Below, one piece after another: positions 788-16,747 of a DNA stretch of 64,000 nucleotides. The first letter of the stretch is position 1; each line of letters opens with the position of its first letter. The notes beneath the pieces are model-generated. The model ran no database searches, was not told where the DNA came from, and was given only the letters and a program-made list of their open reading frames with translations. Location of the stretch: NCBI GenBank assembly GCA_035544215.1, contig DATKHY010000007.1, positions 558,001-622,000 of the forward strand, written 5' to 3'. The position numbers and the translations under genes are program-made. The DNA is from Candidatus Binatia bacterium (lineage in GTDB: Bacteria > Vulcanimicrobiota > Vulcanimicrobiia > Vulcanimicrobiales > Vulcanimicrobiaceae).

Positions 788-1039
788 TTAAGCCTCCGGT
801 ATGCGGCCGAAGGCGGCGGTCAAGCTGCTCAGTTCGCCTTTCTTTGCCAATTCCTCTCGTAGGATATCTTTGGCTATTCGCGTCTGGCGCTTGCCGAAGT
901 TCGCCGCCGGCAGCAACCCCAGCTTTATCGCGGCATAGACTGCACTCGGGGTGACGCGAAGCAACGCCGCCGCTTCTCTAACGGTGAGGATTTCTGGAGC
1001 GCTTTCCCAGGAGAGACTCGTTCGACCCAAGTGCTTCAT
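788..1039 (-). CDS. excisionase-like helix-turn-helix protein (Xis/MerR-type)
   Basis: An 83-residue protein with the motif EILTVREAAALLRVTPSAVY (about residues 16-35), the classic helix-turn-helix core of excisionase/MerR-like DNA-binding proteins, followed by a GLLPAANFGKRQTRIAKD wing-like stretch. ATG 1039 is preferred over an in-frame TTG two codons earlier because GAAGG lies six bases upstream. It ends one base before the integrase ATG, a layout typical of xis-int pairs, where the small protein controls the direction of recombination. It could instead be a generic helix-turn-helix repressor of the integrase operon. Confidence 0.82.
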   Translation of the reverse strand: MKHLGRTSLSWESAPEILTVREAAALLRVTPSAVYAAIKLGLLPAANFGKRQTRIAKDILREELAKKGELSSLTAAFGRIPEA

Positions 1040-1089
1040 ACACAACCTTCAATTTCACCAACGCGCGTGGGCGTGAGAACAAAGAGCCC

Positions 1090-3499
1090 TCATCGGTCTA
1101 TCGTCATGGCGTCGCGTGCACGTTGCTCTTTACGAATGCTGTACTCAACATCTCGCCGTATCTCGTTCGGCAGAGCTCGATAGCCGCGCTCGATCGCGGC
1201 TGCAAGGTCGTCGAGCCGTAAGACCCCGATCGCAAGGTCACAATCGATGCGCGCGACGCCGGCACGCTCGAGGACGTTCAGTCGCCGCTCGATTCTCGGT
1301 ACTTCGTCGCGAGCGGCACGCGCGTTATTCATTTCCCGCTCTAGGCCCAACGATGCGTCGACGTAGCGCCGGTAGACGCGTTGGTGGCCGGCCAGCTGTT
1401 TTTCAAGCTGCGGCAAGTCACGCCGCTCGAACTCATGCGTTGCCTCCGCGAGCGCCTTTTCGTAGCGCGAGCGCTGCTCGCCGCATAAACGCTCTTCTTC
1501 TTTTTCCGCGGCGCGGCGTGCCAGCGGGTTCCACGACCGCTTCTCTCTGCCGAGCTGCGCGAGCCGAACGCGCTCGGCATCCGTGCAGCGGGTAGCCTCG
1601 GCCGCACGCTCGTGAATTCGTCGCCGTTCGGTGGCTAGCGCTCCGTCGAGTGTCGGTGGACGCTCGACTTGCTCCAGGTGCTGACGCTCGAGGCGAGCAT
1701 GCTGATAGCGCCCGTCTTCTTCCGCGCGCATGACATTGAGCCGTAGACGTATCTCGGCTAGTGCCACAGGACGCAGCTCACGCTGCGGGACGCGCTCGCT
1801 TCGGTTGCGCGTCGGACGCACGAGCGCATCGACTACCCGCTGCGCTGCGAGGTCGCCCGCACGTGCCCGCTCCGTGACGAATGATCGATACGCGAGCGGC
1901 TTCTCCTCACGCGCCAACCTCCGCTCCGACGCCAGCACGATCTTCGTCGCCTCCCAGCGCACGCGCGCGGCGTCGTACTCTTTCGCGCGCCGGCGGCCCA
2001 TGACCGCGTCGACCGACCAGTACGCGAGCTGCCGGGCAAACACACCGCGCGTGCCCAGCCGCGCCACTGCGCGCAAGAGCAGGCGCGCTTCGCGCCGCCG
2101 CTGGGCATCGCGCTGCCGTTGCCCTCGTTCGCGCTCCCAGGCTGCATCCCGGCGTGCGCCCATCGCCCCGGCACGTTCACTGAAGAAGCGGTCGCGGTAG
2201 GCCCGGTACTCTGACCGTAGCCGCGCATGGTCGGCGATGCGCTCGGCATCGCGCAGCGCCCAGCGCGGATCACTGCATGCTTCGTGTTCCGCCCGATCGT
2301 AAAGCGCGCTGCGGCTGCGCTTCAGTGGCTGCTCCGGTGTATACGGACACGGGCCAAACCGCTGCTCGAGTGCGGCTTTCTTACAGCGCGGATGGATCCG
2401 CGACGCTCCGCAGCCTTTCGCCTGGGGATCCCTGCCCGCTGCAAACGCCAGGCCCTGCACCCGCGCACCGCGCCGGATCAGCTTAACGACGATGCCGTCG
2501 AGATCGAGCCTCTGCCCGAGTTCCTCCCACGTTTTCGACGCATCGATCGCCGTCAGAATCTTGGGACGAACCGAGCCAGCCCATGACGCGGAGCGCGCAA
2601 TCTCAGCGACACGTTCGCGCGCGGGAGTGAACGGGCCGAATTGCGACTCCATCGCCCGCAGTGCACAGCGCGCATCGATGCGTGACGCCGCACAACCCGG
2701 CGCTCTGCGATCCAACCCTTCGGCGAATGCCAGCCCTTGAACGCGCTCGCCGCGACGAACGAGCTTCACGACGACGCCGTGCGCACCCAGGCGCTGATGC
2801 AGGTCGCTCCAGTCCTTGGCGCGATCCACGGCATCCAGCACATAAGTCCGCGCACTCTCCTGCCATGGCAGCTCGCCGCGCTCGTGCAACCGGCGGTACG
2901 CACCGTCGCTGAGCCGGCGCTGCGGATCGGGTGGGGGCGTATACAGATGCTCGACGTGCTGCACGATGTCGCGGTTGTGACGTCCGACCACGATCGTCCA
3001 GCCACGTTCGGCCGCGATCTCGGCACAGACCCGCTCGCGTTTGATCCGCTCGCGCCAGAGGTCGTTGGCTTTGCCATCAGGGCCGATACGGTTGGCGATC
3101 ACATGGGCGTGGAAGTCGTCGGTATCCTTGTGTGCCGCGAGCACGTACTGGCTCTTCTCCATCCCAATCGCCTTGAGCAGCCGTTCCGCATCGCTCACCA
3201 CCTGCTCGCGCGTGGGGCGTTCGTTCTTGGCATAGGCGATGATGAGATGATAGACCGGATCTTTTGCGCCTGGACAGCACGGCGACGGCCTCCATCTCGA
3301 TCGCCGCCGTCTCCACTGACATGGCCCCACGCAGATGCACCCACTCGGCCTTCTCCGGCGCGCTCGCATAGCTAACGCCACCCTCAAAGGAGTGCCCGGC
3401 TTCAGCGACAGCGCGCTGATGCGTGTGCTCGGTGATATAGTCGACCCCGATCGCGAACGTGCGGGTATGGGCGCGCGCCGCTACCGCTTTCGAAATCAT
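1090..3499 (-). pseudogene. MobA/VirD2-like relaxase interrupted by a one-base frameshift
   Basis: The gene starts at ATG 3499 with a GGAG ribosome site. Its first 79 codons contain the VDYITE segment with the likely nicking tyrosine. The frame then breaks in an AAAA run (plus-strand TTTT at 3262-3265). Family homology resumes in the next frame at KDPVYHLIIAYAKNE and continues to 1090. The metal-binding histidine motif AHKDTDDFHAHVIANRIG follows. The central part carries two tandem copies of a module containing WxxLxxRL, VVKLxRRG and VQGLAFA. The long C-terminus is Arg/Glu-rich and probably coiled coil. Joined, it would be about 800 residues, normal for such relaxases, which nick oriT and lead plasmid or element transfer. 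Removing one A restores a continuous protein, so this is either a recent inactivating slip or a sequencing error in a homopolymer. Confidence 0.85.
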
Positions 3500-4046: not shown

Positions 4047-4769
4047 GTGACGACCGACTCCACTTCAACTGAACTCCCGCAGCAACAGGCGTACTCGGAA
4101 AGCCCTACAACCGGCGGTCTCGCTGATGTTCAGTTGGCCGAGAATCCGGAACCGCGCTGTGCCTGTTTGTTGTTGCTCGATACCTCTTACAGCATGAACG
4201 GTGAGCCAATCCGCCAGCTCAATAGTGGCCTTATCGGCTTCAAAGATGAACTCATCGCGGACGAACTCGCGGCCAAGCGCGTCGAGGTCGCTGTGATCAC
4301 TTTTGGGCCGCCACAGCTCCTCTGCGACTTCACCGAGGCTACCGTATTTCAGCCGCCAACTCTAACGGCAAGCGGAGATACACCGATGGGGGCGGCGATT
4401 ACGATGGGTCTCGATCGACTGCAGGAACGCAAAAAAACCTACGATGCTGCGGGCATAAGCCGCTTTCGTCCGTGGGTCTTCTTGATCACCGACGGGGCGC
4501 CGACCGACTCGTGGGCGGGGGCAGCCCAACTTGTGCATGATGGTGAAGCGCGCGGCGCGTTCTCCTTCTACGCCGTGGGAGTGCAGGGAGCCGACTTTGC
4601 CAAGCTCAACGCAATCGCACCGCCCAACCGCCCGGCAGCAAAGCTAGACGGCCTGCGCTTTCGCGATCTTTTTAGCTGGCTATCGAAATCGATGCACGCC
4701 GTCTCGCGCAGCACGCCTGGTACCGACGTCAACCTCAGCACACCAGGCTGGATCAGCGCGCCCGGCTAA
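4047..4769 (+). CDS. VWA-domain protein, TerY-like (first gene of a phosphorylation triad)
   Basis: The protein has 240 residues from GTG 4047, which has GGGAGG eight bases upstream. A von Willebrand A domain fills most of it: the MIDAS metal motif DTSYSM (D45, S47, S49), the threonine in SGDTPMG near residue 112, and the aspartate in FLITDGAPTD. The C-terminus (about 215-240) is Ser/Pro-rich and looks disordered. VWA proteins of this type (TerY) are known to travel with a PP2C phosphatase and a protein kinase in stress or defence loci, and the next two genes are exactly these. The stop overlaps the next ATG by one base, so translation is probably coupled. The target of the complex is not visible in the sequence. 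Confidence 0.88.
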   Translation: MTTDSTSTELPQQQAYSESPTTGGLADVQLAENPEPRCACLLLLDTSYSMNGEPIRQLNSGLIGFKDELIADELAAKRVEVAVITFGPPQLLCDFTEATVFQPPTLTASGDTPMGAAITMGLDRLQERKKTYDAAGISRFRPWVFLITDGAPTDSWAGAAQLVHDGEARGAFSFYAVGVQGADFAKLNAIAPPNRPAAKLDGLRFRDLFSWLSKSMHAVSRSTPGTDVNLSTPGWISAPG

Positions 4770-5533
4770 TGTGGCGCGTGGCGCGCGCAAGCGCCACCGG
4801 CACTTCGCACATGCAAAGTGATACGCCCTGTCAGGATCGTCAGGCTATAGGCACTGTGCTCAGTCCCGATGGCGCGACCTCCCTGATCGCGGTTATCGCG
4901 GACGGAGCCGGTAGCGCGACCCATTCGGCCGAAGGCGCTGAGCTCGTCTGCCATACGCTGTTGGAATTGGCCACCGCCTCATTGGAGCGTAACAGCGACC
5001 TTGACGAGCTCGACGATACTATCGTACGGACATGGTTCGCTCAGGTGCGCGAGGCGTTGCGCGCGCGCTGCGCGCGAGACGATCTGCCGATGTTCGATTT
5101 CTCCGCAACGGCCGTGCTGGCCATCGCCGGCGCTCAGCAGACTCTTTGCGCGCAGATCGGTGACGGCGCCATCGCCTTGCGCACGAGCGTCGACCACTCC
5201 TTCCAGATCGCGATCTGGCCGCAAAACGGGCAGTACGCAAACGAAACAACGTTCGTGACTGACCCCTATGCAGCCGAACTTGTCGCGCTCTATCGCACCG
5301 AGCGCGTTGACGATGTCATTCTATTCTCCGACGGGCTCGAGCGCGTAGCGCTGGATCTTGCCGCTAAGGCGCCGTTTCCAAAATTCGTCGAACCTCTCGC
5401 GCGCTTCGTCCGCGGTGAGGCCACTCTGGAAGAGCAACTGGACGCTCAGCTGCGAGCTTTTATCGAATCAGCGCCAATAAACAAGCGTACCGATGACGAC
5501 AAGAGCTTAATCGTCGCATGCCGACTGCCATAA
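4769..5533 (+). CDS. PP2C-family protein phosphatase
   Basis: A 254-residue PPM/PP2C serine/threonine phosphatase. It begins with a substrate-pocket segment (SDTPCQDRQAIG), followed by the first metal-binding motif AVIADGAGSATHSAEGA. Further motifs are QIGDGAIAL near residue 130, LFSDGLERVAL near 190, and the final acidic motif RTDDDKSLIV near 245. All expected metal aspartates are present, so it should be active. It overlaps the preceding stop (TAATG) and its 3' end overlaps the kinase start by 16 bp, indicating one tightly coupled operon. In the TerY-P triad the phosphatase is thought to reverse phosphorylation by the partner kinase. The domain assignment is clear; the biological substrate is unknown. 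Confidence 0.9.
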   Translation: MWRVARASATGTSHMQSDTPCQDRQAIGTVLSPDGATSLIAVIADGAGSATHSAEGAELVCHTLLELATASLERNSDLDELDDTIVRTWFAQVREALRARCARDDLPMFDFSATAVLAIAGAQQTLCAQIGDGAIALRTSVDHSFQIAIWPQNGQYANETTFVTDPYAAELVALYRTERVDDVILFSDGLERVALDLAAKAPFPKFVEPLARFVRGEATLEEQLDAQLRAFIESAPINKRTDDDKSLIVACRLP

Positions 5534-7521
5534 CCCCCCGTTTCTATGATTCGGCAGGCCGCGACGTCGCTCTCGCAGGCGAGCTCGGCGAGGGCGGCGA
5601 GGCAAAGGTGTACGCCATCGCGGGCGATCCAACGCGTGTACTTAAGGTGTACCTCAGGCGCCCTCCGATGGACCAGCTGCCCAAGCTGCGCGCCATGGCC
5701 GCGCTTAAGAACCAGGACCTGCTTAGCGTAACGACGTGGCCTCTCGACGTTTCGTTCGTCAAGGACCAGCAGTTGGCGGGCTATACGATGCCGCGGCTCA
5801 AGGACTTTCACCCACTTCATACTCTCTTCGGGCCCAAGGCCCGCCAGCAACTCTATCCAAATATGACGTGGAAAGCGTTGGTCACGATGGCAAGCAATAC
5901 TGCCCAGGCCATCGCCGTGTTGCATCATTTCAACATCGTGATGGGCGACGTTAACGCCAATAATATCGTCGTACACGACGATAGCAAGATAACCCTTGTT
6001 GATTGTGATTCCTACGCATTCACCTATAATGGAGAGCTGTTCCCTTGTCGCGTCGGCATGGACGAATACCAACCCCCAGAATTGCAACCGGATCGCTGGA
6101 GCACTTTGCCCCGTACTCAAGAGGGCGATCGCTTCGGGCTAGCAGTTATCATCTTCCAGCTTCTCATGATGGGCCGGCACCCATTCGAAGGCGTCAACAC
6201 ACACAGGAAGCTCGCGGATCCCACGCGCGCCGCGAATATCGCGCGCGGTTTCTTCTTCTACGGGCCCGGCGCCGCCGTTCACGGCCTGCAACCGCCGCCG
6301 GCTGCGCTGACTCTCGGTGCGCTCTCTCCACGCGTCGCTAACCTATTCGTGCGCGCTTTTGCTGGAACGCCAGCTCAGCGTCCAACGGCACTCGAATGGC
6401 ATGCCGCGTTAGTCGACCTTGCCAGCCAGCTCATCTGCTGTAAGGCTAATCCAACACATGTCTATCTCAAGTCCGGACAGTGCCCGTGGTGCGCGATCGA
6501 ACGCCAGACAAAAGGTCAGATTTCCTACTTTCAGCTTCCTGTTCCGTTCAGTAGCGACGGCAAAATCGACGACTCCATTTGGGCAACCTTTCCAGATGCC
6601 AAACTCACTGAGCTCTGGCGCGCCATCTTGGGTCTAGGTGCACCTACAGTCACCTACAGACCGACCCGTGGCGCCGTGCGCGCCATCACATTGCGCCCCA
6701 AGCCGCTCCCGCCTGACCTTCGAAAGCGAGGTCTGATTCTAGGCGGCGCGCTTGCAGTAGCTTGGAGCCTCATTCTGATCCTTTTGCTTACTCAGCACGG
6801 TATGATTGCGAGCGCCTTGGCGGTCGTTACTCTTTGCGCTTGGCCCTTTGTGCGCATTGAAGGTAACGGCGAGTTGCAAGAGCGCCGGGATTCTCTCGCC
6901 GCAGCGCGTGAAGATTTCAACCGTGCCGAAGATCGTTGGCGCAGCTTAGGTGGCGCCATGGAATATCACGAATTACGAGCACGCTTAGAGGCGGTCACCA
7001 ATTCGCTACTTGGGCAGCGGCAGAGGTATGACGCGGAAGTTTCCGCGCTCAAAGCACACCAGCAAGAAGCCAACCGGCGGGCTTTCTTAGACGGACAGCT
7101 TATCGCGAGTTCCAGGATTAAAGGAATTGGCCCGAAGCTGACCGGGACATTAGCGGCGTGGAACATCGAATCCGCGTTCGACGTTGACTACACTAGGATC
7201 GTCAACATCCCTGGATTCGGGCCCGCCAAGGCGAGCGCATTAGTATCATGGCGCACCGGTCTGGAGCAACAATTCAACCGCAGGCCGCCCGCGCCGCTGG
7301 CGGACGCGGTCCTCCGCCCCGTTACCACAAAGTACGTGCGCACGCGCGTCCAAGGTCGAGAAGAGCTCATCGCCGGAAAGACTCGCATTGCCTCCCTGCT
7401 TCCGGAGCTAGCTAAAGCTGCGCCCGAGGCGCAAGCGGCCGCGGCTGCCTCACGGGCTCGGCTCAACCAGGCCATGGCCGATGCGCTTGTCATGCCGCGC
7501 TTTATCTACCGGACGTCGTGA
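5518..7521 (+). CDS. membrane serine/threonine kinase with zinc-ribbon-like motif, coiled coil and helix-hairpin-helix C-terminus
   Basis: 667 residues. The N-terminal kinase domain has the glycine loop GEGGEAKVY, an ATP-lysine in VLKVY, the catalytic loop MGDVNANN (residues 142-149; MGD replaces the usual HRD), the metal aspartate in VDCDSY (about 162-165) and a PPEL segment for APE. Cysteines at about 305-306 and CPWC (322-325) suggest a small zinc ribbon. Two membrane helices follow at about 405-445, then a coiled coil to about 525. Next come two helix-hairpin-helix motifs (IKGIGPKLTGTL and IVNIPGFGPAKASALVSWR, about 533-580), a fold that usually binds DNA. It is the kinase of the triad and overlaps the phosphatase gene. 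A membrane kinase with a DNA-binding-type tail would suit a sensor of invading or damaged DNA, but that role is inference. Confidence 0.88.
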   Translation: MPTAITPRFYDSAGRDVALAGELGEGGEAKVYAIAGDPTRVLKVYLRRPPMDQLPKLRAMAALKNQDLLSVTTWPLDVSFVKDQQLAGYTMPRLKDFHPLHTLFGPKARQQLYPNMTWKALVTMASNTAQAIAVLHHFNIVMGDVNANNIVVHDDSKITLVDCDSYAFTYNGELFPCRVGMDEYQPPELQPDRWSTLPRTQEGDRFGLAVIIFQLLMMGRHPFEGVNTHRKLADPTRAANIARGFFFYGPGAAVHGLQPPPAALTLGALSPRVANLFVRAFAGTPAQRPTALEWHAALVDLASQLICCKANPTHVYLKSGQCPWCAIERQTKGQISYFQLPVPFSSDGKIDDSIWATFPDAKLTELWRAILGLGAPTVTYRPTRGAVRAITLRPKPLPPDLRKRGLILGGALAVAWSLILILLLTQHGMIASALAVVTLCAWPFVRIEGNGELQERRDSLAAAREDFNRAEDRWRSLGGAMEYHELRARLEAVTNSLLGQRQRYDAEVSALKAHQQEANRRAFLDGQLIASSRIKGIGPKLTGTLAAWNIESAFDVDYTRIVNIPGFGPAKASALVSWRTGLEQQFNRRPPAPLADAVLRPVTTKYVRTRVQGREELIAGKTRIASLLPELAKAAPEAQAAAAASRARLNQAMADALVMPRFIYRTS

Positions 7522-8381
7522 CGACTCTCGCGTTTCCTCCAGCAAGCTTGCCGCCTGCCACGACCGACCCGATCTTGACCGGGCTCATGACCCATGTCTT
7601 GCAGCCCGGCGAAATTATACTGCTCCAAACGCAGACGAACGTCGACGAGGCCATCATGGTTACGACGGCGCGCATAATCATCGTGAAGGGGCCTACGCGC
7701 AGGCCCGATCCCTCTCATAGCGGGCGCTACTTTCCACTCGACTCCGTCATCGGCATTCAGACCCGCGGGTGGTTTGGCGTCGGATTTCTCGCGATTATCA
7801 CCGCGGATACTGCGCGAGAATGGATCCCCTGGGCCGATCGATGGCGTTGCAGCTTTGGTGTGACATTCGCCAACAAGCACTTGGGAAATACTGTGGCATC
7901 GTACCTTCGCGCGCTTCTTGCCCACCTCGCCGAACAAAGGCGCCTTGCGCTGCTTAACGCCCCATTGCAGCCAATTATACCGACGGTCGGTGTGGCGGCT
8001 GGCGCCGGTGAGCAATTCTACATGCAAGTTCCTGCCGTTTATTATGCGCAACATTCCTACACGGACTACGTCGGCGGCTGGCAAGGCATGTCGTTTCGTG
8101 TTATGCGCGGCGTATACTACCGCATCGGTGGATCGCGCGGCCGAGGCGTGCGCCGGCAAACGCTCCAGCCCGACGACCGCGGACAACTGCTCATCGGGAA
8201 CCAACGAGTGCTCTTCGTGGGTAACGAGAAGGACATCGCAATTCCGCTAGCACACATCACCGCAGTCAGATCATTTGTTGACGGTTTGCAGATCGGTGTT
8301 GCCAATAAACCCTTGATTCAGTTCTCGACGCCTGACCAGATGCCAGGCCAAGTGCTCAAACGGATCCTAGGCATCCCGTAA
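7518..8381 (+). CDS. fourth gene of the kinase operon, possible PH-like protein of unknown function
   Basis: 287 residues from GTG 7518; its start overlaps the kinase stop in a GTGA, so it is co-translated. Two segments resemble bacterial PH-like beta barrels. One is LQPGEIILLQTQTNVDEAIMV to about residue 80, with ARIIIVKG and the FPLDSVIGIQTR strand pattern. The second is near residues 210-280 (GQLLIGNQRVLFVGNEKDIAIPLAHITAV). There is no signal peptide or membrane helix. I recognise no specific family; the PH-like call rests on the strand pattern and the typical phrase about lines of defence between PH strands. The overlap makes it the likely partner or substrate adaptor of the kinase/phosphatase pair. 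Confidence 0.6.
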   Translation: MTTLAFPPASLPPATTDPILTGLMTHVLQPGEIILLQTQTNVDEAIMVTTARIIIVKGPTRRPDPSHSGRYFPLDSVIGIQTRGWFGVGFLAIITADTAREWIPWADRWRCSFGVTFANKHLGNTVASYLRALLAHLAEQRRLALLNAPLQPIIPTVGVAAGAGEQFYMQVPAVYYAQHSYTDYVGGWQGMSFRVMRGVYYRIGGSRGRGVRRQTLQPDDRGQLLIGNQRVLFVGNEKDIAIPLAHITAVRSFVDGLQIGVANKPLIQFSTPDQMPGQVLKRILGIP

Positions 8382-9017: not shown

Positions 9018-10849
9018 CTAGTCTACTGTCTCTCCCGGGTGAATGGCCGTAAGCGGCAGCACATTGTTACGAGCGGCACCGTCACCATTGTAAGCAGGTT
9101 CGCTGGTAACGCTCGCGTCCACCTCAGCTTCCGCTTCCTCGTGCTCCTGGTCCTCAATGGTAGGCCCCAGAATGATCTCTGCGGTTGCCTCTGGCAACTT
9201 TTCAACGCCGCGGAGCTTCCGATGCATGGCGCGCGTTCGAATACCGAGAGCGTCGACGGATTTGCTGGCGGTGTTCAGCTGCTTCGCTAACCTGTCGACA
9301 ACCTCATTATACTTTCCGAACTCACTGCTCACTGCTCCGAGAATCTGCCAGACCTCGCTTGATCGCTTCTCGATCGCAAGCGAACGGAAGCCCATCTGCA
9401 GTGCGTTAAGCAGCGCAGTAAATGTCGTCGGCCCAGTGAGCGTTACGTGGTAGTCACGCTGAAGCTGCTCGAACAAGCCTGGGCGCCTAAGTACTTCCGC
9501 ATACAAGCTCTCCGTTGGCAGGAACAAGATGGCGAAGTCTGTGGTTCTAGGCGGCGCGATGTACTTCTCCTTAATCGTCTTTGCGGCAAACTTGAGCTTA
9601 TTTTCGAGCTCCTTTGACGCCTCCATCACAGCGGCGGCATCGCCGGCTTCTGCTGCACGTACTAGACGCTCGTAGTCCTCAAGCGGAAATTTCGCGTCTA
9701 TGGGGAGCAGTACCTCGCCCTCGTCATCACGCCCTGGTAACCTAACCGCGAACTCGACTCGCTCGTTGGTGCCCTCCTTAATCTGTGCGTTCTTTACTAC
9801 TTGATCTGGCGATAGAAACTGATCCAGTAATGTTTCTGCCTGAACTTCACCAAATGTTCCGCGAGCTCGCACATTAGTCAGAATGCGCTTTAGGTCGCCG
9901 ACACCGGCTGCGAGCGCTTGCATCTCGCCGATCCCGGTATGAACTCTTTCCAGTTGCTCAACGACTCGGGCAAACGACTCGCCAAGCCGGGTGTCTAAGT
10001 TGACTGCAGCTTTTCGTCGACGGTCTTTCGCATCTCCTCAAGTTTCGCGGCATTGTCAAGGCGAATCGCTTCCAAGCGACCGTCGACGGTTTTTGCTAGA
10101 GAAACAAGAGAAGCGTTTACACCGTCAAGCCGCTCTTTCTGTAGGGCGCTAGATTGATTGAGCGCGTCCGAGAGCTTTAAGCTCAACGACTCGCCCGTTA
10201 ATCGTAACCTCTCATCAACGGACTTACGTGTTTCTTCAAGCTTAGAAATATTTTCTAGACGAATCGCCTGAAGCCTATCATCAACAGTCTTTGTGAGAGA
10301 GGCAATGGAGACGTTTACTCCGTCAAGCCGCTCCTTCTGCTGAACGTTAGATCGATTGAGAACTTCGGAAACGTTCGCGCTTAGCGATTCCCCTGTTAAT
10401 CGCAGCCTTTCATCGACCGATTTCCGCATACCCTCGAGCTTGGCGGCGCTTTCCAGGCGAATCGCTTCAAGTCGCTCATCGACCACTTTGGTAAGAGAGG
10501 CGATCGACACGTTTAGGCTGTCGAGCCGCTCCTTTTGTTGTGCACTGGATTGCTGCAGCGCCTCGCACATCCGAGAACTCAACGACTCGCCCAGTTCATG
10601 AAACGCGGCGAGAGTGGTTCTCTGATGCGTTGCCAGATTCTCCGTGAGCTCTTGCCGCAGAAGGCGCCCTTGTTCGGTCTCGATTTGGCCGATGCGGTCG
10701 GATTCGCTACGCAGAGCTATAGTGAGCTCATCGGTCGTGACGTTCTTGATCGGCCGGCTGGCACGAACAGCGGCTAGAATCGCAAAACCAGCCGCGACGA
10801 TACACGCTGCCAAAATAGCTAAGCCGAGTCCAGAACCCGACAGCATCAT
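9018..10849 (-). pseudogene. rmuC: RmuC-family protein split by a one-base frameshift
   Basis: Two frames together make one RmuC (DUF: DNA recombination protein that limits inversions at short inverted repeats). Frame one (10849-9995) has an N-terminal membrane helix (LGLAILAACIVAAGFAILAAV) and a long coiled coil made of three near-identical units of about 66 residues, each with QKERLD, SIASLTK and RKSVDERLRLTGE. It stops at TAG 9997-9995 right after VDEKLQST. The next frame continues immediately as LDTRLGESF and VHTGIGEMQALAAGVG, then the conserved nuclease-like domain (RGTFGEVQAETLLDQ, NERVEFAVRLPG, LLPIDAKFPLEDY, FLPTESLYAEVLRRP, GPTTFTALLNALQMGFRSL). One base is missing near 9998-10000. 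The protein is either inactivated or the base was lost in sequencing. Confidence 0.88.
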
Positions 10850-10946: not shown

Positions 10947-10979
10947 GGGGGATAGCTCCGAATGCCAGAGCGCCTTCCT

Positions 10980-11009
10980 ATGACGCAAAATATAGCATTT
11001 TGCTATACT
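10980..11009 (+). promoter_or_regulatory. promoter with overlapping palindromic operator for abiE
   Basis: ATGACG (10980-10985) and TATACT (11004-11009) with an 18-bp spacer fit a sigma-70 promoter. Inside the spacer and -10 box lies a perfect palindrome, TATAGCA-TTT-TGCTATA (10991-11007). A repressor bound there would block RNA polymerase. AbiEi antitoxins are known to bind inverted repeats in their own promoters, so autoregulation is likely. The ATG of abiEi (11019) is only 10 bases after the -10 box, so the transcript may be almost leaderless. Confidence 0.5.
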
Positions 11010-11018
11010 TGGCGTAAA

Positions 11019-11540
11019 ATGCGCAATGGAACGGAGGACCGCCTGCTTGCTCTGGCTGAGGACCAAGAGGGCTACTTTGCCCTGAAGGACGCGGTCGCGT
11101 CAGGCATCCCCGCGCCCCTGATTCTACAGCTTCATGCCAGAGGGAGACTCGAGCGCCCCGCACGCGGAGTCTACAGGATCGTTCGCTTCCCAGCTTCCCC
11201 CCACGGCGACCTCTGGCTTGCCGTCCTATGGCCGCGCGGCACAGCCACCGTCAGAGGCGTCCTCTCAGGGGAAACAGCGCTGCTTTTACATGGCGGGACG
11301 GACGTAAATCCCAGCCTCGTCCATGTCACGGTGCCCAAGCGCTCGCGAATCGAACGAAGGCCGCCGACCCCGATTGTGCTCCACTTCGATGACCTCGACC
11401 CCGTAGATACCGAACTCATTGAAGGGCTCCCTGTCACGAGCGCGCAGCGCACCCTACGCGATCTGCGTGCCGATCCGGCGCAATCGCGCTACGCTGATGC
11501 CTTCGAGCGGTCGCTCAGGGCGCGTGAAGTTACGGATTGA
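11019..11540 (+). CDS. abiEi: AbiEi-family antitoxin (type IV toxin-antitoxin)
   Basis: 173 residues from ATG 11019; an upstream in-frame ATG (10962) would run through the promoter palindrome and is disfavoured. The N-terminal winged-helix segment is EDQEGYFALKDAVASGIP, followed by LHARGRLERPARGVYRIVRFP, which is diagnostic for AbiEi proteins. The C-terminal part has the ALLLHG and VHVTVPKRSRIERR motifs and the ending PVTSAQRTLRDL seen in the AbiEi C-terminal domain. The antitoxin represses its operon and counteracts the nucleotidyltransferase encoded next. The stop overlaps the toxin TTG start (TTGA), so the two are coupled. Confidence 0.87.
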   Translation: MRNGTEDRLLALAEDQEGYFALKDAVASGIPAPLILQLHARGRLERPARGVYRIVRFPASPHGDLWLAVLWPRGTATVRGVLSGETALLLHGGTDVNPSLVHVTVPKRSRIERRPPTPIVLHFDDLDPVDTELIEGLPVTSAQRTLRDLRADPAQSRYADAFERSLRAREVTD

Positions 11541-12976
11541 AGCCGCAGATCACCTTTCGCGAGCTGCAACGGCGAATCAGTACGCTCGCGCTTCGCCTCG
11601 GTATACCTGTGCAAAGGCTCTACCAACGCATCGCTACCGAAGTACTCTTCAACGTTCTTGAGATCGCACGAGAGCGCGGCATCATCGACCGTTATGCGAT
11701 CAAGGGCGGAATGGCCCTCGAGGTTCGCTTTGGCATGCGTGCTCGCGCGTCGCGTGACGTCGACGTGAGCGTTCCCGTCCCTTTCGAATCTATACCTGAT
11801 CTTCTTGACGATATATTGGCGGTTGGTTTCGACGCCTTCACGATCCGACGCCGAGGACCACTGCGCGTTCTGGAACGAGCTAAGGTCTACCGTGCAGAGT
11901 TGAATGTCGAATTCGCCGGCAGACGACTCTATCGCCTTGATCTTGATATCAACGGGTCGGAGTTCGAGCCGAGCACCGAGGTCATACCCAGCGGCATGCT
12001 CACAGAGCTTGGACTCCCCGGGCCGGTCCACGTTGCGTTGCTCGAAGTGGCCGCTCAGCTCGCGCATAAGATTCACGCCGCCACCCAACCATCGACCGAT
12101 GTCTACACAAACGAGCGCTACCGGGACGTTCTTGACGCTTTGATTATCGCGGACTCTACGACGCTGGATTATGAATGGGCGCGTGTCGTCTGCGGCGCGG
12201 AGTTTGCACGGCGAGGTACGCACGGGTGGCCGCCGCGCTTCGACCTCGATGAGCGATGGAGCGCTGGATTGCGTGCCGAAGTTGCTGCTCATGGCGACTT
12301 TCCGGCGCCCCCCGAGCTCATTGCGCAGCGTTTCAACAACCTTATTGCAGCCATAGAGGGTGTTCCTATGTATGAAGTCTTAGAAACCAAACTGATCGAG
12401 GTCTCGGCCGACACGCTCACCGCGGATGCGAGGGGATCCGGCGAACTGGGTGCGCTACTAGCACAAGGTTGGCAAATAACGAATATGAGTCGAGATGTAT
12501 CAAACGCCCGTCGCCAGTTCATCGTACTCGAGCGTAGACGCGTTCACGCACGCGCCGCCCGAGAGATTCCACGGTTACAGGCACGCCTCGAAATGCAAGG
12601 TCCGCCGGCTGTCCGCGAAGTAACGCCCCTGCGAGGCGTGCTAAGGAATACTGGCGCCCCGGCGAACTATGTAAGAGTAATTATTCCGGGCATACCGCAG
12701 GATTATATGAGGCGCTCGACCACCCGCTTCGGAACGATCACCATGGGTGACGAGGTTCCGTTCGCGGTCCCCGTCACACTGGGGATCCTCCAGCAACCGG
12801 ACGCGCCTGGTCCGTGGGAGATCGCTTTCGAGTACGAAGACGATGTCGGACAGAAGTTTCGCCAAACTGGCGAGCTCGACCCCTATGCCTCGTTCAACAA
12901 CGTACGGCTGTATCAAGTCCTCGGGCTTCGCGGGCCGATGCCGATCGAGGGATACTCCGTGCCTTACTCGCCCTGA
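11537..12976 (+). CDS. abiEii: AbiEii-family nucleotidyltransferase toxin with long C-terminal extension
   Basis: 479 residues from TTG 11537, overlapping the antitoxin stop. The nucleotidyltransferase signature is complete: IKGGMALEVRFG (K56-G57-G58) and SRDVDVSV with D74 and D76. LAHKIHA follows near residue 180. AbiEii toxins block growth, probably by modifying tRNA, and protect populations against phage. Most members are about 300 residues; here about 190 extra residues follow. Part of this (MYEVLETKLIEVSAD to FIVLERRR) looks like a small alpha/beta domain of the DUF4177 kind. The end (about 380-470: YVRVIIPGI, GTITMGDEVPFAVPV, GPWEIAFEYED) looks like a beta sandwich. The core call is firm, the extension assignments tentative. 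Confidence 0.85.
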   Translation: MKPQITFRELQRRISTLALRLGIPVQRLYQRIATEVLFNVLEIARERGIIDRYAIKGGMALEVRFGMRARASRDVDVSVPVPFESIPDLLDDILAVGFDAFTIRRRGPLRVLERAKVYRAELNVEFAGRRLYRLDLDINGSEFEPSTEVIPSGMLTELGLPGPVHVALLEVAAQLAHKIHAATQPSTDVYTNERYRDVLDALIIADSTTLDYEWARVVCGAEFARRGTHGWPPRFDLDERWSAGLRAEVAAHGDFPAPPELIAQRFNNLIAAIEGVPMYEVLETKLIEVSADTLTADARGSGELGALLAQGWQITNMSRDVSNARRQFIVLERRRVHARAAREIPRLQARLEMQGPPAVREVTPLRGVLRNTGAPANYVRVIIPGIPQDYMRRSTTRFGTITMGDEVPFAVPVTLGILQQPDAPGPWEIAFEYEDDVGQKFRQTGELDPYASFNNVRLYQVLGLRGPMPIEGYSVPYSP

Positions 12977-14973
12977 CGCTGTTCGCTACGATTACTCTCG
13001 GTAAAAGCTTCGCAACGACTTCGGCGCCTGTGTAATGCATCTAGTACGCTGCGAGCCGTCCTTACCTTCATCGCTTCGGGGGCATCATCGAATCGCCGCA
13101 GCCAACTCAACGCATCGTCGAATCGCTTCAATTTTACTAACGCAATCGTCAACTTGTCGGTCCAGTATCCAATCTCCAACGAATCGTCCCTAGTTTGCAC
13201 GGCCCGTTCGTACATTGCGTCGCACAAGGCCGAGGCCGCGGTTACAACGGCCTCGGGGCCTTTCTCTTGCCACGTTGCATCCCGAGCTCGCTTATACGGC
13301 TCCGAATCATGGAAAGCTCGCGTCTCGTCCCAACGCCGACGATTCTCCTGCTGTTCTTCGACAGTGAGCTCGGAGCCGGTCCTCGCATATCGTTCTATGC
13401 GCTCGATCGGGCCGGTGGCGAACTGCGTGAACGCAGGGTTCATCATGATTGGGCGAGGCAAGCTGACGCGGACTCCGACTGGCGAGACCGTAATGGTTGG
13501 ACCCGGCACGGAATCGAGCGCCTTGAGCGCGGCGATCCGTTGTGCCCTTTGCGATTCCGGGAGAGAAGCAAGAAACGAAATGACGGTAATCGCTTCCTTA
13601 CAAAGAGCCGCAAGACCGGGTTTCATTCCTGGTGCCGTGTTCAGCGCGCGGAGTTCGACCAGTAGGGCGTTCAAGTCGCAACAGCCGACAAAAGGTGTAC
13701 GAAGGAGGGCGTCCATGCGAACCGCTAAGTATTTAGCAGTAAGTGCGACGAAGCCACCGTGAAACGCGCGCGCGTATTCACGTCGTTGCGCGTCGCTCAT
13801 GGTTTCGACACGCGCGTAGTAATCTGGCCCAGGCATGAGCCCGGTAATACGAAGCGAGTCCACAGCCGGGTCCATCGGTAGCTGCAGGAAGCGGTAGGAA
13901 GCAGCAAACTTTTCAAATGCTTCCTCCTGATCGGAAGCCCTCTCTTCAGCTTCGCCGACGCGTTTGAGGATTGCGTCGTAGCGCTTCTGATCGATGATGC
14001 CGAGTCGCAGCAGGTTATCGGCTTGACGACCATGATTTGGTATGAATCTGATCGCTTTGGGATCGCAACATGCTTCCGATGCTTTTCGGTAGATCGGACC
14101 TAAAATTAGTTCTCGCTTTCCTCCGTCCTCCACGAGCGTTCCTAAGTCGTGCAATACTCGTTTAGCGTCGTCGGGGCGGTTGCAGGCTGCGAGCAGTTCG
14201 CATAACTTGGCTACTAGGTCCCAAGATCGGAACTGCGCCTCCAGGTTGGCGATGCTCAAGGTGTTGTAGACCTCAAATGCAGCGTCGGCTGCAAGGTCGT
14301 CTAGAAGCATAGAAAGTTTGCCGAAGCGGACGCGCACAAAGAACGAATCCACGTCATTTGCGACAATGGGCTGCGATCCAGTCGCAAGCGTCTCCTGGGC
14401 CACCCGTCTTCGGATGACAGCTGAGAACAACTCGTAGGCGTCGTTTATCCTCCGCATCGTCTCGTTGTCGCCGCCGACGTCTGGATGATAAGCCAAAGCA
14501 GCCCTGCGGTATGCGGCTCTAAGATTCTCGAGCGTGAGCGGCGGTGTGAGGTCAAGGAGCGCGTAGCCCTGAGGGTCTCGAGACCTCGCCTCAGCGGCTG
14601 AGTCACCAACAACCATCGCTGGAGAGACCGAGAATGCAGCGGTCTCTCTTGCTATGGCGAGTGCAATCTGGTCTTGGGCGTCGGGGTCACGTTCGTACAG
14701 TAGAACCGCGTTCGCACGGTTTAAAAACTCATCACGAAAGTCGCGATGCTCGCGCATCGTCTTTAGGCCACGGTCGTAGGCCTCCGCCTCCAGGTACCGA
14801 TAGTACATGGCAAGCGCGTTGATCCCATCGACCAGGTTAGGAGCTTTTCGGGTTACGAGCTCGGCAGGAATCGGCTCCCTCCCGGGCTCGGCCGCCTTTG
14901 GTATCGAATCAGACTCCTCGGGCTGCGCTTCTCCGTTCGATTTGGTGCCGAACAACTGCTTGAACCAATTCAC
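12964..14973 (-). CDS. large J-domain protein (DnaJ-like co-chaperone of the island)
   Basis: About 669 residues from GTG 14973 (VNWFKQLFGTK); a longer frame reaches 15030 but its first codons are Arg-rich and less likely. A J domain lies about 135-205 residues from this start: LLDLTPPLTLENLRAAYRR, then YHPDVGGDNETMRRINDAYEL with the HPD tripeptide needed to stimulate Hsp70 ATPase. The N-terminal 90 residues and the C-terminal 430 residues are helix-rich with possible TPR-like repeats. No zinc-finger or DnaJ C-terminal domain is present, so it is not housekeeping DnaJ. Stand-alone J proteins are frequent accessories of stress and defence islands. It is convergent with abiEii (13-bp overlap), so it belongs to its own transcript. 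Confidence 0.78.
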   Translation of the reverse strand: MNWFKQLFGTKSNGEAQPEESDSIPKAAEPGREPIPAELVTRKAPNLVDGINALAMYYRYLEAEAYDRGLKTMREHRDFRDEFLNRANAVLLYERDPDAQDQIALAIARETAAFSVSPAMVVGDSAAEARSRDPQGYALLDLTPPLTLENLRAAYRRAALAYHPDVGGDNETMRRINDAYELFSAVIRRRVAQETLATGSQPIVANDVDSFFVRVRFGKLSMLLDDLAADAAFEVYNTLSIANLEAQFRSWDLVAKLCELLAACNRPDDAKRVLHDLGTLVEDGGKRELILGPIYRKASEACCDPKAIRFIPNHGRQADNLLRLGIIDQKRYDAILKRVGEAEERASDQEEAFEKFAASYRFLQLPMDPAVDSLRITGLMPGPDYYARVETMSDAQRREYARAFHGGFVALTAKYLAVRMDALLRTPFVGCCDLNALLVELRALNTAPGMKPGLAALCKEAITVISFLASLPESQRAQRIAALKALDSVPGPTITVSPVGVRVSLPRPIMMNPAFTQFATGPIERIERYARTGSELTVEEQQENRRRWDETRAFHDSEPYKRARDATWQEKGPEAVVTAASALCDAMYERAVQTRDDSLEIGYWTDKLTIALVKLKRFDDALSWLRRFDDAPEAMKVRTARSVLDALHRRRSRCEAFTESNRSEQRQGE

Positions 14974-15262
14974 AGTGCCTGTACCAGTTCGTCGCAAGTT
15001 TCGCTCGCCATCCCGGTGGCGCGGCTTCAACTTGCCGTTAGACTTCGAGCAGCGAGTGCGCGCTCGAAGATGGACTCTTTGGGCCGACGAGAAGGCGAGC
15101 CGACCCGGTAGAAGATTATACTCCGGGCTCTACTGCTGAGGTCTGGTTCGATAGGCGAGAAAGGCTCTACGCCAGACGACCTTCGAAGGCAGAGGGCGAA
15201 GCACGCATAACCACGGTCGTCAAGAAGCCGGACCATCGGCTGATTCTTGGAGGTAGCGCGCA

Positions 15263-16747
15263 GTGAACGACAGGACACGTACCAATATAACGGCTTCGAT
15301 GCTCTACGACCTGGATGCCTGCGAACACCGTCCATGGATGGACCTTTTCGCCGACCAGAATGCACGCGACGCAGTGAGCCCTTTCGTCGAGTTGCTCTGG
15401 CGCCGCGGTCGCGCTCACGAGGAAGAAGCGGTTGCTGGTGTCGAGATGCTCAACCTACGTATGCTGCCGGTCGAGGAACGCGAGACCGCCACGCTCGAGG
15501 CGATGCGAAACAGCGTCCCTCTCATTTACGGAGGGCGAATCTCCAGCGGCGATCTGCTCGGTGAGCCCGACCTCCTTCGGTGGGAAGACGGTCGATACGT
15601 GCCCGGCGACATTAAGTCTGGTGCCGGTGACGAAGGGCCATCCGAAGAGCGCCGACCTAAAAGGCGCTACGCGGTTCAGTTAGCTTTGTACGTTGACATC
15701 TTGGAACGACTCGGTTTGTCGGCGGGACGCCGCGGCTTCATTTGGGACATTCATGGCGACGAAGTGCCATATGATCTCACGATAGCCAAGGGTAAGAAGA
15801 CTACCGAAACGCTCTGGGGCGATTACCAGAACTCCTTGTTGATTATGCGCGAGATCCTGTCGGGCGTGCGTAATCCTGGGCCGGCGTATCACGGGGAGTG
15901 TAAGTATTGCGTCTGGTACAGTACATGCATGGCGGAACTCGCACGAATGGACGACCTGACGCTGCTCCCTGGACTTGGGAAAGCCAAGAGGGAACCGTTT
16001 CTTCGCTTTGTAAAGACGAGCGCGGAGTTGGCGGCCGCTCCTCTCGAGCGATTCCTCGACAATAAGGGCAAAAGTATTCTTCACGGGATTGGGGCTGATT
16101 CCATAGCCCGTTTTCAGGCCCGAGCTGCTCTGAAGGGGACGAAGGGCGCTCCGTATCTACGCGTCCCTTTAGTCTTGCCGCAAAGCGGTGTCGAGTTATT
16201 TTTTGACATCGAAACCGACCCCATGCTAGAGCAGTGTTATCTTCACGGATTCGTCGAGCGGCATCAGGCCGACGACTCCACCGAGCGGTACGAGGGGTTC
16301 TTTTCCGTCGCTCCCACTGCCGATGGCGAGCGCGATGCATTTGCGGCCGCGTGGGACTACTTAAGGCGCGTCGGGCCTTGCGTCATCTACATCTACTCGA
16401 AGTACGAGCGCACATGGTGGCGGGCGCTACAGAGGAAGTACCCCGACGTCTGCGCGCCCGGGGATATCGAGCGCCTATTCGATCCTTCTGTTACCGTAGA
16501 CTTGTACGAAATCGTCTCAGAAAGCACTGAATGGCCCACGAACGATCACTCCATCAAAACTCTCGCTCAGTACCTTGGTTTTGAATGGCGTGATCCTCAT
16601 CCATCTGGCGCCGCATCCATCGAATGGTACGACCGTTACTGTCGCGGAGATGCATCCGCGAAAGGGCGGATACTAGAGTACAACGAGGACGATTGCCGCG
16701 CAATGAGGGTTCTAGCGGATGCGTTGCGTTCACTCGACACTCAGTGA
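15263..16747 (+). CDS. TM0106-family nuclease: Cas4/RecB-like PD-(D/E)XK domain plus RNase H-like domain
   Basis: 494 residues from GTG 15263, with GGAGG ten bases upstream. The first half is a PD-(D/E)XK nuclease: GEPDLLRW (about residue 100), GDIKSG (about 115) and AVQLALYVDILE. It has a Cas4/AddB-like set of four cysteines: C19 in DACEHRPW and C213-x2-C216-x5-C222, positions suited to an iron-sulfur cluster. A helix-hairpin-helix-like LLPGLGKAKREPFL follows. The C-terminal half is an RNase H-like DEDD exonuclease domain (FFDIETDP near 314, YNEDDCRAM near 475). Proteins of this architecture are annotated TM0106 family and are assumed to process DNA or RNA ends. It stands alone, next to the left attachment scar. 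Confidence 0.88.
   Translation: MNDRTRTNITASMLYDLDACEHRPWMDLFADQNARDAVSPFVELLWRRGRAHEEEAVAGVEMLNLRMLPVEERETATLEAMRNSVPLIYGGRISSGDLLGEPDLLRWEDGRYVPGDIKSGAGDEGPSEERRPKRRYAVQLALYVDILERLGLSAGRRGFIWDIHGDEVPYDLTIAKGKKTTETLWGDYQNSLLIMREILSGVRNPGPAYHGECKYCVWYSTCMAELARMDDLTLLPGLGKAKREPFLRFVKTSAELAAAPLERFLDNKGKSILHGIGADSIARFQARAALKGTKGAPYLRVPLVLPQSGVELFFDIETDPMLEQCYLHGFVERHQADDSTERYEGFFSVAPTADGERDAFAAAWDYLRRVGPCVIYIYSKYERTWWRALQRKYPDVCAPGDIERLFDPSVTVDLYEIVSESTEWPTNDHSIKTLAQYLGFEWRDPHPSGAASIEWYDRYCRGDASAKGRILEYNEDDCRAMRVLADALRSLDTQ

Follow-up and report, generated by a model that had tools for sequence, protein, structure and literature searches.

We identified, in the operon at 4047-8381, what is likely a signaling triad of the YegL-PphC-YegI type in a variable region bearing mobile elements, followed by one lineage-specific 3' gene. 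The core of three genes is a known one, present in Escherichia coli and many other bacteria; only the fourth gene is unusual. This links an earlier guess at a defense function to a family whose E. coli kinase/phosphatase pair has been studied biochemically but is of unexplained purpose.

Operon layout and the YegL-PphC-YegI family

The window (the whole 64,000-nucleotide stretch of DNA that was analyzed) contains the four ORFs on the same strand, with the outer coordinates given in a first-pass annotation of this DNA and with each ORF overlapping its neighbor (Table 1). The VWA and PP2C genes meet in a TAATG at 4767-4771, the PP2C and kinase genes share 16 nt (5518-5533), and the kinase and fourth genes share a GTGA at 7518-7521. 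The overlapping, coupled genes annotated at 4769, 5518, and 7518 are all present. Because the genes overlap, their co-translation is favored. A GGGAGG motif lies 7 nt upstream of the GTG of the VWA gene.

Table 1. Features of the operon, of the encoded kinase, and of the adjoining element
Feature	Position	Strand	Size and basis
Tyrosine integrase	about -368 to 786 (L053:14632-15786), past the left end of the window	-	Phage_integrase 8e-25
HTH_17 excisionase-type protein, beside the tyrosine integrase	788..1045	-	HTH_17 1e-9
MobA/VirD2-like relaxase, element adjoining the operon	1090..3387	-	Pfam Relaxase 6e-21
VWA protein, YegL type	4047..4769	+	240 aa, GTG start; Pfam VWA, YegL identity, tree
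PP2C-type Ser/Thr phosphatase, PphC/YegK type	4769..5533	+	254 aa; Pfam PP2C_2, PphC identity
Membrane Ser/Thr kinase, YegI type	5518..7521	+	667 aa; YegI identity, alignment, AlphaFold2, Foldseek
Fourth protein	7518..8381	+	287 aa, GTG start; C-terminal homologues
Kinase domain	residues ~16-305 of kinase		
C-H-C-C site (C308/H314/C322/C325)	residues 308-325 of kinase		
Membrane hairpin	residues ~399-446 of kinase		
Coiled coil	residues ~449-526 of kinase		
Tandem HhH	residues ~529-587 of kinase		
C-terminal helix	residues 596-666 of kinase		

The first three proteins matched Pfam families above the cut-off. The VWA protein (VWA, 5e-7) has a complete MIDAS (DTSYS...T112...D149), of which D45, S47, S49, T112, and D149 were at least 93% conserved in an alignment of 34-35 sequences. 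The same level of conservation (at least 93%, 34-35 sequences) was found for the metal-site residues D45-G46, D132, D188-G189, and D243-D244 of the PP2C protein (PP2C_2, 3e-44). In the kinase (Pkinase, 7e-10), K43, D144, N146, D162, and D164 were invariant in 26/26 aligned kinases. Since the VWA, PP2C, and kinase motifs are conserved across homologues, they are not chance, and the first-pass reading of them as intact is upheld by the Pfam matches and this conservation.

Sequence comparison shows homology between the first three genes and E. coli yegL-pphC(yegK)-yegI. The same three proteins are encoded there in the same order, with identities of 58% for the VWA protein and YegL, 34% for the PP2C protein and PphC, and 31% for the kinase and YegI, each over nearly the full length. 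The match to this studied kinase/phosphatase pair had been missed in the first-pass annotation. The two loci also differ. In E. coli K-12, the opposite-strand gene yegJ lies between pphC and yegI, whereas no gene is interposed here. A fourth gene overlaps the end of the operon here but not in E. coli, and integrase and relaxase genes are present nearby, in contrast to the 13-kb context read around the E. coli triad, which contains neither.

According to passages of PMC13232886 that cite these results, the Ser/Thr kinase YegI resides in the inner membrane, phosphorylates itself on serine, and is dephosphorylated by PphC. The same paper reports that no condition inducing the E. coli triad was found (PMC13232886), and the literature that we found establishes neither a function nor a stimulus for it, nor a role for YegL. 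Because the identity to YegI is only 31%, the clients of the kinase described here may differ from those of YegI. Results obtained with the E. coli K-12 genes would inform all such loci.

We collected 36 loci by scanning genome contigs, 27 of which show the VWA-PP2C-kinase order found here. Four Chloroflexota loci have the order PP2C-VWA-kinase; the remaining loci are truncated or distant. Members of the family are spread over many phyla and lie both on chromosomes and on plasmids, the latter including plasmids of Deinococcus, Pseudomonas, and Granulicella. In the host phylum, strong kinase-profile matches were limited to two genomes (G025 and G119) and the own genome, with weaker kinase-domain matches in two more. 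PHROGs has one function-unknown family for each of the three triad proteins, indicating that phages carry relatives of them; when the kinase was compared with phage records, only 3 matched, none over 80% of its length.

The operon had been likened to the TerY-P triads of ter loci. As a yardstick, we used the ter-locus triad of the environmental Polaromonas plasmid pPNAP04 (L101), chosen over a ter locus on a K. pneumoniae plasmid. Both triads comprise VWA, PP2C, and a kinase in which the kinase domain is followed by a Cys-rich motif. Identities to the operon proteins were 26-31% for ter-locus VWAs, 30% over 69 aa for the Polaromonas ter PP2C, and 22% over 246 aa for its kinase. In a tree of 42 VWA rows, the three VWAs from ter loci formed a separate branch (100/100), and the operon VWA paired with that of locus L003 (96/73) among the YegL-type rows, separating YegL-type from TerY-type VWAs. 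The Polaromonas ter-type kinase has no YegI-type tail, unlike the kinase here, and the TerD and TerY-C genes of ter loci have no counterpart in this operon. The TerY-P assignment therefore holds for the make-up of VWA, PP2C, and zinc-ribbon-type kinase but not for the VWA protein, which falls outside the TerY clade. These comparisons place the triad as related to TerY-P but belonging to the YegL-PphC-YegI branch.

The fourth gene

The fourth ORF is coding, since the C-terminal half of its product has homologues (up to 40% identity). Including the own genome, a single-sequence search detected relatives of this half in 8 of 149 phylum genomes and a profile search in 10 of 149; plasmids, phages, and viral contigs gave no match. 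The regions read around these relatives contained no triad, and the profile search did not detect the family beside any other triad examined. Among 31 triad-bearing genomes or records, its single match (G157) lies outside the stretch read around the triad. The conserved four-gene unit proposed in the first-pass annotation is thus not borne out. By these searches, the fourth gene is a lineage-specific addition to the operon, seen once, and not part of a conserved unit. The GTGA overlap with the kinase gene would still suit a four-gene functional unit, in which a PH-like fourth protein is essential to the switch in this organism, through membrane docking or as a substrate. We give this reading only tentative credence, considering that the family is missing beside the other triads and that its relatives occur away from triads.

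For the fold of the fourth protein, the best PDB profile match was the beta-propeller sensor domain of PknD (0.0015), and PH/GRAM matches were only sub-threshold. Relatives of the C-terminal half matched GRAM (0.004-0.006), CheF-arch, bPH_3, and Vps36 profiles, all below threshold, and a weak match to BBS5 (0.037) was likewise sub-threshold. Single-sequence structure prediction gave no confident fold (pLDDT 30.8). The C-terminal half (residues ~134-284) is possibly PH/GRAM-like, and no assignment was obtained for the N-terminal half. The most likely role of such a protein, suggested here with little confidence, would be that of an adaptor, acquired by the operon in this lineage, that binds the membrane or a partner.

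Kinase architecture and a predicted switch

In the first-pass annotation, the kinase had been assigned to the membrane and credited with zinc-ribbon-like and HhH motifs. The family alignment and an AlphaFold2 model agree with this. Residues C308, H314, C322, and C325, which form a putative zinc site, were invariant in 26/26 aligned kinases. A hydrophobic segment was present at the position of residues 406-424 in 25 of the 26 sequences, and the canonical HhH hairpins IKGIGP and IPGFGP were kept across the family in the same 26-sequence alignment. In the model (mean pLDDT 85.6), a kinase fold is followed by a helical hairpin (residues 399-446) and a long coiled coil; in the HhH region, pLDDT exceeds 90. 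Foldseek with this model returned kinase matches, with PknB at the top. E. coli YegI shares the C-H-C-C site, membrane hairpin, coiled coil, and HhH tail. On the strength of the alignment, this predicted architecture is the family norm of YegI-type kinases: the putative zinc-type site, the membrane hairpin, and the HhH tail are found family-wide.

An on/off switch is probably formed by the membrane kinase and its cognate phosphatase. Hydropathy and the model suggest that the short two-helix hairpin holds the protein in the inner membrane, with the kinase domain and zinc site on one side of it and the coiled coil and HhH tail on the other all lying in the cytoplasm. Autophosphorylation and phosphorylation of substrates may begin when the tail or the zinc site oligomerizes or binds a ligand. 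The co-translated PP2C protein would strip the phosphates and keep the switch off, by analogy with the reported action of E. coli PphC on YegI. The VWA protein, via its metal site, could be an adaptor that links kinase, phosphatase, and client. As the output of the operon, we assume a stress-type response by default.

The tail could alternatively bind DNA, so that the kinase would be a sensor of DNA damage or of the nucleoid at the membrane, coupling the state of the DNA to phosphorylation independently of phages. The family-wide hairpins and the well-modeled HhH region are in line with this, but HhH motifs can mediate protein contacts too, the Pfam HHH_5 match of the region was sub-threshold (0.017), and no DNA-repair gene was found as a constant neighbor among the triad flanks examined. 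We regard a DNA sensor as rather unlikely.

Genomic setting and the question of defense

The location of the operon in a mobile or variable region, as proposed in the first-pass annotation, is supported by the nearby integrase and relaxase genes and by surrounding defense-type genes. The operon lies in a broad stretch of DNA with lower G+C than the DNA to the right, and only the segment at about 31-32.9 kb of the window aligned in the synteny comparison with the genus.

In this setting, the operon could be an anti-phage module, in which the HhH tail, or a loss of phosphatase activity, serves to sense infection or foreign DNA and the freed kinase halts growth. The operon has the integrase and relaxase genes on one side, with TIR proteins beyond them to the left, and AbiE-type genes on the other. 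A precedent is the prophage module KKP, in which kinases are the toxin, a PP2C phosphatase is the antitoxin, and a phage protein is the trigger (PMC11341870). What KKP shares with the operon is a Ser/Thr kinase counteracted by a phosphatase of the PP2C type; it has two kinases and no VWA is mentioned, and we liken the two by domain type only. TerY-P-like modules with an OB-fold kinase are stand-alone antiphage systems according to a report cited in PMC11090510. The CoCoNuT-associated TerY-P systems of the same paper are comparable in having a zinc-ribbon kinase and in tying the triad to defense loci, but, unlike there, no CoCoNuT-type GTPase/helicase gene was recognized adjoining the operon.

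We also surveyed the flanks of about two dozen triad loci (127 proteins), as raw tallies without a baseline, from which no enrichment is claimed. Wadjet JetC lies within a few genes of one YegL-type triad (L013, 327-3707), a type I restriction subunit is beside another (L018), OLD-like ATPases are beside two (L010 and L040), and WYL proteins flank two (L009 and L013). Housekeeping genes were also found: mdtABC/yegD/alkA beside the Escherichia triad and glyA beside Chloroflexota triads. Related triads thus occur in both defense and housekeeping settings.

The many relatives in ordinary settings and these mixed tallies argue against a defense module. So do the PADLOC results, with no match for the VWA protein, one weak match (0.008, a candidate system) for the PP2C protein, and only generic kinase-domain matches (PD-T4-6/MAD6) for the kinase; neither PADLOC nor NCBIfam gave a triad-specific match for any of the three. 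We consider an anti-phage module unlikely, and we do not favor a defense or DNA-sensing role as the main explanation. A four-part switch is improbable; in it, the fourth protein would be a lineage-specific subunit docking the kinase signal to the membrane or to a client, and the HhH-tailed membrane kinase would answer foreign or damaged DNA.

Several other features were recorded around the likely YegL-PphC-YegI-type triad. A tRNA-Ser (cga) predicted by ARAGORN at 287-360 (only 74 nt) was considered as an integration site and rejected; it lies inside the integrase gene and is probably spurious. Further left, at 410-2338 of the stretch L053 and outside the window, two TIR proteins of the ThsB type are encoded close to an Nmad2 protein, which suggests more defense genes upstream. 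To the right of the operon, rmuC (9018-10849, minus strand) is split into two ORFs, and the segment between them still encodes RmuC-type sequence in a different frame, which points either to a frameshift in this copy or to a sequence error. At 10962-12976 (plus strand), an AbiEi-type antitoxin gene is followed by the gene for a 479-aa protein, the first half of which is an AbiEii nucleotidyltransferase toxin and the remainder of which has no assignment. The end of this AbiEii-type gene is overlapped by a convergent gene for a 688-aa DnaJ-domain protein (12964-15030, minus strand), and a protein with RNase_H_2 and PDDEXK_1 nuclease domains is encoded at 15263-16747 (plus strand).
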